Below are positions 1 through 26,876 of a DNA stretch of 64,000 nt, piece after piece. The notes below the pieces were generated by a model. That model was not told where the DNA came from. It searched no databases and worked only from the letters and a program-made list of their open reading frames with translations. Made by a program: the position numbers and the translations under genes. Numbering within the stretch: the stretch's first letter is position 1; each line of letters begins with the position of its first letter. This stretch comes from Ensifer sp. BR816 (lineage in GTDB: Bacteria; Pseudomonadota; Alphaproteobacteria; Rhizobiales; Rhizobiaceae): positions 1,579,830-1,643,829 of the forward strand of contig NZ_KB905370.1 of assembly GCF_000378985.1 (NCBI RefSeq), given 5' to 3'.

Positions 1-535
1 ACAGCTTGATGCGCGGGTTCTGCTCGTTGCCGTCGAGGATTTCATAGACGGCGGTGTAGAAGGGCGAGGTGCCCGGCTGGGCGCCGACGAGCCCGTCTTC
101 GACCGCCGCAAAGCTCTTGGCATCCTTGAAGCGCGCCTCGTCGGCGCGCACCAGCATGAACTGCTGCGAACGCATATAGGGGTCGGAGAAGTCCACCTTC
201 TCCTTGCGGTCGTCCTTGATGGTAATGCCGGTCATGCCGATCTGATACTGGCCGTCGGATACCGACTGGATCATCGCATCCCAGCTGGTGTTCTGATATT
301 CGACCCTGAAGTTCAGCCGCTTGGCGATCTCGTTCATCGCGTCATACTCCCAGCCGACCGCCTGGCCGGACTTCGGATCGACGAATTGCAGCGGCGGGTA
401 GGCGTTCTCGGTGACGACGACGACCGTCTTGCCGCCGAGGTCCGGCAGGTCGCTCGCGACGGCAGGCGCGGCAAATGCGAAGGGAACGGCGAGGGCAGCG
501 GCGATGCCCGCGAGCACGTGGCGGCGGATTGTCAT
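1..535 (-). CDS. Amino-acid ABC transporter periplasmic binding protein (partial)
   Basis: The gene runs off the left edge, so only about the first 178 residues are present. The N-terminus (MTIRRHVLAGIAAALAVPFA) is a signal peptide ending near an AxA site. The mature part has the family 3 solute-binding pattern: a first strand followed by NAYPPLQFVD, then GWEYDAMNEIAKRL, and the motif QIGMTGITIKDDRKEKVDFS that is typical of polar amino-acid binders. It would capture an amino acid in the periplasm for an inner-membrane ABC permease lying beyond the window. It follows rplS on the same strand but is separated from it by a strong terminator, so it probably has its own promoter. Substrate cannot be told from this piece. 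Confidence 0.9.
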   Translation of the reverse strand, partial: MTIRRHVLAGIAAALAVPFAFAAPAVASDLPDLGGKTVVVVTENAYPPLQFVDPKSGQAVGWEYDAMNEIAKRLNFRVEYQNTSWDAMIQSVSDGQYQIGMTGITIKDDRKEKVDFSDPYMRSQQFMLVRADEARFKDAKSFAAVEDGLVGAQPGTSPFYTAVYEILDGNEQNPRIKL

Positions 536-614
536 TGGAGAAACTCCCGAAAATTGTGGCGACCGAAAATGTCACGAATTTCGTCGGGAAGACAAGCAGA
601 TAGTTCTAAACAAG

Positions 615-25202: not shown

Positions 25203-26876
25203 TCAGCCGGCGGCGACGCCGGCGATCGCCTCGGCAAAATCCTTCGCCTCGAAGGGTTCGAGATCGTCCACTCCTTCGCCGACGCCAATGAAATAGACCG
25301 GCAGCTTGTGCTTGGCGGAGATCGCCACCAGGATGCCGCCGCGCGCCGTGCCGTCGAGCTTGGTCATGATCAGCCCGCTGACGCCTGCGACATTGCGGAA
25401 GATCTCGACCTGCTGCAGCGCATTCTGCCCGGTCGTCGCATCGAGCGTCTGCAGGACGGTGTGCGGCGCATCGGGATCGAGCTTGCCGAGGACGCGGACG
25501 ATCTTCTCGAGCTCGGCCATCAGCTCGGCCTTGTTCTGCAGCCGACCGGCCGTGTCGATGATCAGCACGTCCGATTTCTTTTCGCGGGCGAGCTGGTAGG
25601 CCTCATAGGCAAGACCCGCGGCGTCGGCGCCGAGCTTCGAGGCGACGATGTCGGACTTCGTCCGTTCTGCCCATATCTTCAACTGCTCGATCGCCGCGGC
25701 GCGGAACGTGTCGCCGGCCGCGAGCATCACCTTCAGCCCGGCGCCGGAAAGCTTGGCGGCAAGCTTGCCGATCGTCGTCGTCTTGCCGGTGCCGTTGACG
25801 CCGACGACAAGGATCACATGCGGCTTGTGGCTGAGGTCGAGTTCAAGCGGCTTGGCGACCGGCGCCAGTACCTTGCTGATTTCGCCGGCCATGATGCGCG
25901 AGACATCCTCGCCGGTCACGTCCTTGCCGTAGCGCTCGGAGGCGAGCGTGTCGGTGATGCGCATTGCCGTCTCGACGCCGAGGTCCGCCTGGATCAACAG
26001 GTCTTCCAGATCCTGCAGCGTCGCCTCATCGAGCTTGCGCTTGGTGAAGAGGCTGGCGATCTGGCCGGTGAGCTGCGATGAGGTACGGGCGAGGCCGCGG
26101 CGCAGCCGCTGGTACCAGGAAAGCTGCGGCTGGGGGACAAGCGCTGCTTCCTTGGGACGCTTGTCGGAGGCGGCGAAGCCTTTGGGGAGTGCGGGTGCGG
26201 CTTCGTCGCGGAGCGCGGCCTGGTCCGTGGAGGGGGCACCCCCCTCTGCCCTGCCGGGCATCTCCCCCACAAGGGGGGAGAGTGGATGGGGCGCGCTCTG
26301 GTCGTCTATCGCGGCGCTTTCGTCGACTTCTTCGCCAGGGGTATCAACCTCATCCGGGGCGGGCTCGCCTGTCGGCGCAATTTCGTCTGCACCACCGGCC
26401 TCTGCCGCCTCGACGACGGCCCCCTCGTCCGCAGGGGGTGCCTCGGCCGCCATCGGCTCCCCCCCCTTGTGGGGGAGATGTCCCGAAGGGGCAGAGCGGG
26501 GTATCGCAGCTTCACCGGCAAACGGAGCGTCTCCGGAAGGGGCTTCACCCCCCTCTGCCCTGCCGGGCATCTCCCCCACAAGGGGGGAGATTGGATGGGG
26601 CGGCCGCTCGTCTTCGATGGCAAAGCTCTCGCCAGCAGCGATGTCGGCACTCACCCCAGAGGCTTCATCAACAGTACCGCTTTCATCCGGCGCGTCAGCG
26701 GATGGCGCGATCTCGTCCGCACCAGCCTTCGCCTCGTCGATGGCAGTCCGATCATCCTCGGCGCTCGTCGAAGGGATAACCGGGGCCTCCGGCGCCACCT
26801 CTTGCGGCGACACGGGTTTCTCTTCGACGGTGTCCTTGCCGAAGGAAAAGATCTTCTTGATGAAACCAATCGCCAT
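25203..26876 (-). CDS. ftsY: Signal recognition particle receptor FtsY
   Basis: 557 residues. The C-terminal ~300 residues are the N and G domains of the SRP receptor GTPase: G1 VVGVNGTGKTTTIG (from ~358), DTFRAAAIEQL, DTAGRLQNK, TKLDGTARGG and GVGEGVDDLEPF. It receives Ffh-bound nascent chains at the membrane. The N-terminal ~250 residues form the acidic A domain, and this is unusual: two nearly identical segments (PHPISPLVGEMPGRAEGG at 93-110, PHPLSPLVGEMPGRAEGG at 196-213) and an inverted third (IPRSAPSGHLPHKGGEP at 125-141) are the translation of intergenic-type palindromic repeats. The reading frame stays open throughout. Confidence 0.96.
   Translation of the reverse strand: MAIGFIKKIFSFGKDTVEEKPVSPQEVAPEAPVIPSTSAEDDRTAIDEAKAGADEIAPSADAPDESGTVDEASGVSADIAAGESFAIEDERPPHPISPLVGEMPGRAEGGEAPSGDAPFAGEAAIPRSAPSGHLPHKGGEPMAAEAPPADEGAVVEAAEAGGADEIAPTGEPAPDEVDTPGEEVDESAAIDDQSAPHPLSPLVGEMPGRAEGGAPSTDQAALRDEAAPALPKGFAASDKRPKEAALVPQPQLSWYQRLRRGLARTSSQLTGQIASLFTKRKLDEATLQDLEDLLIQADLGVETAMRITDTLASERYGKDVTGEDVSRIMAGEISKVLAPVAKPLELDLSHKPHVILVVGVNGTGKTTTIGKLAAKLSGAGLKVMLAAGDTFRAAAIEQLKIWAERTKSDIVASKLGADAAGLAYEAYQLAREKKSDVLIIDTAGRLQNKAELMAELEKIVRVLGKLDPDAPHTVLQTLDATTGQNALQQVEIFRNVAGVSGLIMTKLDGTARGGILVAISAKHKLPVYFIGVGEGVDDLEPFEAKDFAEAIAGVAAG
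26237..26292 (-). repeat. Palindromic repeat inside ftsY, copy A
   Basis: Differs from copy B by one base over ~55 nt. Contains the hairpin ctcccccac/aaggggggag and the phrase ccctgccgggcatctccccc. Encodes residues ~195-213 of FtsY. Confidence 0.9.
26456..26501 (+). repeat. Palindromic repeat inside ftsY, copy C (inverted)
   Basis: Carries ccccccttgtgggggagatg followed by tcccgaaggggcagagcggg, the reverse-complement orientation of copies A and B with some divergence. Encodes residues ~125-141 of FtsY in a different reading of the element. Confidence 0.85.
26546..26601 (-). repeat. Palindromic repeat inside ftsY, copy B
   Basis: Near-identical to copy A (26237-26292), 309 nt away, a distance divisible by three. 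Encodes residues ~92-110 of FtsY. Sequence just outside it also resembles that around copy A at the protein level. Confidence 0.9.

Follow-up and report, generated by a model that had tools for sequence, protein, structure and literature searches.

Three copies of a palindromic repeat lie in the coding sequence of ftsY in Ensifer sp. BR816, which raises the question of how such a repeat entered the reading frame of an essential gene and why it has stayed there. In FtsY, an acidic A domain precedes the NG domain. The gene is located in the window, by which the whole stretch of 64,000 nucleotides analysed here is meant. Its product was identified as FtsY by NCBIfam TIGR00064 (residues 281-551, score above the cut-off) and by the Pfam domains SRP54_N (residues 269-329) and SRP54 (residues 352-551). 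The description of the repeats given by the sequence-only reading was confirmed. Two of the copies, A (26237-26292) and B (26546-26601), repeat 56 nt in direct orientation with one mismatch and a spacing of 309 nt, and copy C is inverted, being 83-85% complementary over 41 nt at 26450-26490 with its full end at about 26457-26500. All copies are in frame within an intact ORF of 557 aa, with B read as ISPLVGEMPGRAEGG, A as LSPLVGEMPGRAEGG and C as SGHLPHKGG, as had been stated. A 23-nt core of the repeat was found three times (at most 3 mismatches) in the 64-kb window, compared with a mean of 0.00 in 100 dinucleotide-preserving shuffles. Copy C is a distinct allele and not the same sequence inverted, carrying CTCTGCCCCTTCGGGACATC where the others have CTCTGCCCTGCCGGGCATC, and it is the sole match to its own allele pattern in the source genome at ≤1 mismatch.

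When the DNA of copy B was used as a query, 80 matches were obtained in its own genome at E ≤ 0.001, a number that may be a lower bound because 40 of 53 first-look candidates were scored. Clustering by hand assigned them to ftsY (three matches), 36 simple inverted pairs, one four-match cluster and one single end, giving 38 clusters besides ftsY. The simple pairs span 165-229 bp (n = 36), and the 21 pairs whose sequences were inspected share one layout, in which an end of about 48 bp is followed by a variable interior and the same end in inverted orientation. The 36 simple pairs thus carry terminal inverted repeats on a short unit, as MITEs do; no target-site duplication was evident by eye in the flanks of the units inspected. 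Since these pairs share that architecture, copy C is the partner end of the unit to which copy A belongs (Table 1). The earlier proposal of a separate event for C was accordingly dropped, and an independent insertion of C is ruled out. The order of the ends in ftsY, in the sense of the gene, is R1 - L2 - R2. Judged from the sequence, R1 (copy B) closes an upstream unit on its right side, and the left end of that unit can no longer be recognised here: in the source genome (L111), no match to L1 within 18/44 mismatches was found in the tested frame at the expected place.

Table 1. Features of ftsY and FtsY in the window, and units of the element located in cobN and uvrB
Feature	Position	Strand	Basis or description
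ftsY	25203..26876	-	557-aa ORF; ORF list, NCBIfam and Pfam
FtsY, acidic repeat-bearing N-terminal region	residues ~1-250		
FtsY, NG GTPase region	residues ~254-554		
R2, right end of unit 2 (copy A)	26239..26282	-	CDS position 594; reads LSPLVGEMPGRAEGG; 1/44 mismatch to the canonical end of the genome
L2, left end of unit 2 (copy C)	26457..26500	-	CDS position 376; allele with CCCCTTCGGGA; 4/44 mismatches to the ftsY L-end consensus
Complete unit 2	26239..26500	-	left end, acidic coding interior and right end; inverted pair with the architecture of other genomic pairs
R1, right end of unit 1 (copy B)	26548..26591	-	CDS position 285; reads ISPLVGEMPGRAEGG; identical to the canonical end over 44 nt
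Expected place of L1 (left end of unit 1 in other Sinorhizobium genomes)	26720..26770	-	CDS ~100-155
cobN unit, L017	G000:C1:5974609-5974804		~1.8 kb from the other cobN unit
cobN unit, L022	G000:C1:5976454-5976659		~1.8 kb from the other cobN unit
uvrB single end, L178	G000:C1:5907993-5908054		in frame in the C-terminal part, after the UVR motif; UvrB-type domains precede it in the same ORF

Most copies lie outside genes, as had been supposed of this palindromic family: among the 38 non-ftsY clusters, three were placed firmly within genes (cobN twice, uvrB) and two probably so. Fourteen of the 38 had ORFs reaching at least 40 aa beyond both sides, and 19 ORFs were scanned with Pfam. In the two probable cases, the element falls in the N-terminal portion of a di-haem oxidoreductase and of a penicillin-binding protein; three other clusters seem to lie ahead of the start of the recognised gene, and the rest gave no Pfam match.

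Among plasmid records, 185 of 72,556 matched the element, and the name words of the matching records were nearly all Rhizobiales genera (3 names were not visible). Of the 50 plasmid matches listed, 42 had no annotated gene under the best place in what is an incomplete gene table, and 8 were in unannotated records. None of 50,697 phage records matched. A search of 26150-26700 against Rfam returned six matches at E ≤ 1, all of which fell short of the gathering score and belonged to eukaryotic or viral types. At seven loci with other units, ar14 alone was matched; this sRNA (107.9 bits, gathering score 58.8) lies at L014 2208-2325, close to one genomic unit.

Another case besides ftsY is cobN, in which the Pfam domain CobN-Mg_chel is continuous across two in-frame units. 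Matches at or near both cobN places were also found in the R. johnstonii and Mycoplana genomes. Of 30 Sinorhizobium loci, 16 have a filled site 1, with 99-144 aa separating the anchors, and 14 have a short one, at least four of these with visible remnants; in some Sinorhizobium cobN genes, only fused remnants of both ends are left. This site was also filled in R. johnstonii and Mycoplana, one end was kept in R. lusitanum, and it was short (38-40 aa) in Shinella and both Ensifer genomes. The two Ensifer genomes (2/2) are clean at 38 aa, compared with the 99-144 aa of filled sites, and hence provide a clean empty site. The left end in cobN is read in a frame that differs from that used in ftsY.

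Several known systems invite comparison. The defining paper on RIMEs is reportedly that of Osteras (1995). The available portions of later sources describe RIMEs and related rhizobial palindromes as repeated, structured and mostly intergenic, with a function described as unknown (PMC2573895, PMC2245857). The elements studied here resemble them in rhizobial host and in architecture, and are called RIME-like by this resemblance, having been set beside RIME1 and RIME2 by description only. They differ in having coding copies, whereas RIMEs are described as intergenic and coding copies go unmentioned in the same portions (PMC2573895, PMC2245857). Rickettsia palindromic elements (RPEs) are, as far as the accessible text of the sources goes, palindromes that occur as translated, in-frame insertions in protein genes unrelated to one another and that also have copies outside genes (PMC2229807, PMC10969869). 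The likeness to RPEs that had been noted is supported within the same limits (PMC2229807, PMC10969869): both are in-frame palindromes in conserved protein genes with copies outside genes, compared by description only. Unlike RPEs, the present elements occur in another bacterial family, have paired inverted ends around an interior, occupy some sites shared by a genus and show synonymous-site conservation. GTAG/CGTC REPs are reported, in the part of the source consulted, inside ORFs of several species, often in repair genes and including R. conorii uvrB, with linkers or loops proposed there as tolerant sites (PMC3733652). An end is likewise carried by uvrB of the source genome; in contrast to these REPs, no GTAG or CGTC tag was seen by eye beside the hairpins of 21 units. 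Bacterial MITEs such as ERIC and Correia are described, again in the part available, as short, encoding no transposase and bounded by terminal inverted repeats, with in-frame fusions reported (PMC2229807); from these the present units differ in that no target-site duplication is evident by eye. The ftsY case is filed as an in-frame palindromic insertion of RPE-like kind and is assigned neither to RIMEs nor to RPEs as a tested member.

FtsY was present in all 33 Sinorhizobium genomes searched, and each (33/33) had at least one element end at ftsY: 29 carried L and R ends, three had R ends only, and one (L114, genome G008) had a broken frame, with ends upstream of the remaining ORF and the break within the repeat region, between the left and right ends of unit 1. 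The break may be genuine or may reflect a homopolymer run misread in sequencing. Typically, Sinorhizobium ftsY contains two tandem units, with R1 above threshold in 28 of 30 loci, R2 in 28, L2 in 26 and L1 in 16, and this arrangement (R1 28/30, R2 28/30) upholds the suggestion that a block already bearing an element was duplicated. One FtsY (L139, genome G025) has about ten ET dipeptides in a row within the interior of the second unit. A tree of NG-domain DNA was built from 109 of 113 rows (L079, L093, L105 and L114 being left out). In this tree, Sinorhizobium forms one clade (SH-aLRT 97), sister to three end-less rows, two of which are named Ensifer. As these three Ensifer-clade ftsY loci (3/3) are without any end, the insertion is dated to the Sinorhizobium stem, on the assumption that there was no older origin followed by loss in Ensifer; their flanks are too diverged to give an exact empty site.

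The 109 rows were labelled none (41), U (45), C (4), V (4), R only (5) and M (10), with at least 21 changes on the tree; the labels M, S, V and Gf are our own peptide patterns. Units of the same type were found in ftsY of the Rhizobium lusitanum, tropici, leguminosarum, mesosinicum and tubonense groups, and at L053, L062, L064 and L083 the canonical left end is present in a different reading frame. Ten Mesorhizobium-type FtsY loci have, by peptide pattern, a different repeat with the peptide HPPLDGEGR...TSPIEGEV. Given these Rhizobium units, frame-shifted left ends and the Mesorhizobium-type repeat, the N-terminal region of FtsY was entered more than once and by more than one repeat. The Mesorhizobium-type loci (L084-L110) were found by a looser pattern, and their repeat (HPPLDGEGRHEVAGRGDGADAGHPHPRAALGTSPIEGEVK) is present in up to a few copies in the same N-terminal region.

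Conservation of the ends was analysed at the DNA level in 30 of the 33 Sinorhizobium loci (L114, L130 and L140 left out). Diversity at first, second and third codon positions was.074/.166/.120 for R1,.058/.158/.119 for R2,.079/.069/.118 for L2,.247/.120/.173 for L1 and.025/.008/.270 for NG. In the R ends, second-position diversity (0.16) thus exceeds that at third positions (0.12), the reverse of NG (0.008 and 0.27). Four-fold diversity was 0.114 (R1), 0.106 (R2), 0.152 (L1) and 0.075 (L2), as against 0.296 in NG and 0.37-0.56 in the flanks, the values of all sets of ends being lowered by the choice of copies by likeness to the consensus. Across 241 NG windows of 15 codons, the lowest four-fold diversity was 0.139 and the 5th percentile.201. 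Where the amino acid was unchanged, the majority codon was kept at a frequency of 0.943-0.967 in R1, R2 and L2 versus a mean of 0.812 in NG, and none of 236 NG windows of 14 codons reached 0.943. Rare codons, AGG, GCA, TCT, CCT and GGA among them, were retained at 0.92-0.97 when the amino acid was kept, versus 0.69 at six NG columns. Mismatches were concentrated in the hairpin-I loops of R1, R2 and L2 and in loop II of L1, and hairpin II of L2 was the best-kept part (7/312). L1, above threshold in 16 of the 30 loci only and with a four-fold diversity inside the NG range, constitutes weaker evidence because its loop II, rather than loop I, varies most. The ends in cobN had four-fold diversities of 0.015 and 0.020 (14 of 29 loci each, L194 left out) versus 0.425 upstream. 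Conservation of the protein but not of the DNA, with no copies elsewhere in the genome, had been named as the pattern that would speak against an inserted DNA element, and it is contradicted on both points, by the 80 matches and by the synonymous-site data. An overlapping antisense gene was rejected as the cause of the DNA conservation: no alternative frame is stop-free in all 30 loci, and, compared frame by frame, the loci differ in the number of stops in their non-coding frames.

The ends could look conserved without any selection on their sequence if they were overwritten by genomic copies through gene conversion or repeated insertion. Donors are indeed abundant for the R ends and for hairpin I of the L end (32 of 33 genomes, 0-93 pattern matches each), the cobN ends, for which donors are available, are even more uniform than the ftsY ends, and mismatches in the R ends of ftsY decrease as the genomic copy number rises (Spearman -0.45, p 0.012, n 30; only ftsY R ends with ≤1 mismatch were subtracted from the copy number). 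This correlation is, however, nominal: it was lost under tree control, with six independent pairs and median p values of 0.25 and 0.5, and an equal trend (-0.43, p 0.018) is shown by the L end, whose hairpin II is donor-less and which is nevertheless the best-kept end. Ends within a gene are also no more alike than ends between species (4.69 and 5.05 differences for R, 5.86 and 6.00 for L), and the copies in G001 are, among those listed, mostly of the GGCC type, yet its ftsY copy is of the CCC type. Overwriting is on this evidence an unlikely account, though the strongest of the rivals. The supply of donors for the left end was followed with the L-end pattern CTCTGTCCCTTCGGGACATCTCCCCC, which matched 45 places in the 33 Sinorhizobium genomes when up to 3 mismatches in 26 were allowed. 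By coordinates, 44 of these are at ftsY, and the lone match elsewhere has 3 mismatches and resembles the canonical end. With only one non-ftsY match in 33 genomes, conversion is unlikely for the left end. In the wider family, the L allele occurs as a repeat, with exact matches in 8 of 199 genomes and 20 in one of them; in that family member (G036), nine of the twenty exact copies lie in seven stretches that were inspected. One intergenic unit (L154) has unlike ends. For the R ends and the cobN ends, selection and homogenisation are inseparable because donors exist there. Comparison of the sequences therefore favours, for the L end, selection acting on the nucleotide sequence and leaves the R ends undecided.

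A role of the paired ends as a structured element of the mRNA, in which a long hairpin in ftsY slows translation or directs processing, is improbable. The unit folds at -169.1 kcal/mol (z -6.93), with none of 200 shuffles as stable, and in three of the four sets variation is greatest in the hairpin-I loops. This strong fold is due to the presence of inverted repeats as such, and single ends are not notably stable relative to shuffles (z -1.95, -0.97 and -0.57). In both hairpins of R1, R2, L1 and L2 together, 105 altered pairs were broken, 27 changed on one side still pair and 5 were changed on both sides, so that a reading based on RNA covariation was discarded for want of a compensatory pattern. 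The long-range pairing of L and R loops likewise equalled that of shuffled partners (0.867 and 0.868). An origin as protein-level repeats native to the acidic region of FtsY, palindromic by chance, can be dismissed as extremely improbable, for although the peptides PPSVPSGHLPHKGGD and PISPLVGEMPGRAEGG recur in Sinorhizobium and several Rhizobium, the presence of the DNA element at dozens of genomic sites, mainly as inverted pairs, contradicts such a cause, a different frame is used for the L end at L053, L062, L064 and L083 and in cobN, and synonymous sites and rare codons are kept.

We therefore regard it as probable that the repeats in ftsY are the ends of paired MITE-like elements, RIME-like by resemblance, which were inserted in the manner of RPEs and appear to be constrained at the nucleotide level. 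On the stem of Sinorhizobium, the element would have entered a permissive acidic region in frame, and duplication of the unit would have followed. Such insertions may owe their tolerance to the open reading frames of the ends and to a length that preserves the frame. With less assurance, the ends may persist through purifying selection on the nucleotide sequence itself, and the selected role would then more plausibly be that of a site bound sequence-specifically as DNA or RNA than that of a protein segment or a base-paired RNA fold. The word 'domesticated', applied to the repeats by the sequence-only reading, goes further than the present evidence if it is taken to imply a demonstrated function. 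Tentatively, the ends in ftsY, and those in cobN, may be putative working nucleic-acid sites whose sequence is recognised by a factor or process of the cell, with selection having acted on this recognition, rather than on the peptide, for the age of the genus. No account of such repeats in rhizobial ftsY or cobN was recognised in the literature searched, a scope outside which most subscription papers fell and which gives no proof of absence.

If this is true, coding insertions would be a way for a mobile palindrome to plant a regulatory or chromosomal site in an essential gene. In-frame palindromes, such as those of Rickettsia and scattered REPs, are usually treated as tolerated passengers. 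Here, the element is found in an essential gene at the depth of a genus, in free-living and genetically tractable hosts, and there are replicate sites (two in cobN, one in uvrB) as well as losses and remnants. Whether it is a passenger or selected can be asked directly, because synonymous recoding separates nucleotide from protein effects. The variability of the FtsY N-terminus in Rhizobiales comes in part from the insertion of repeats.
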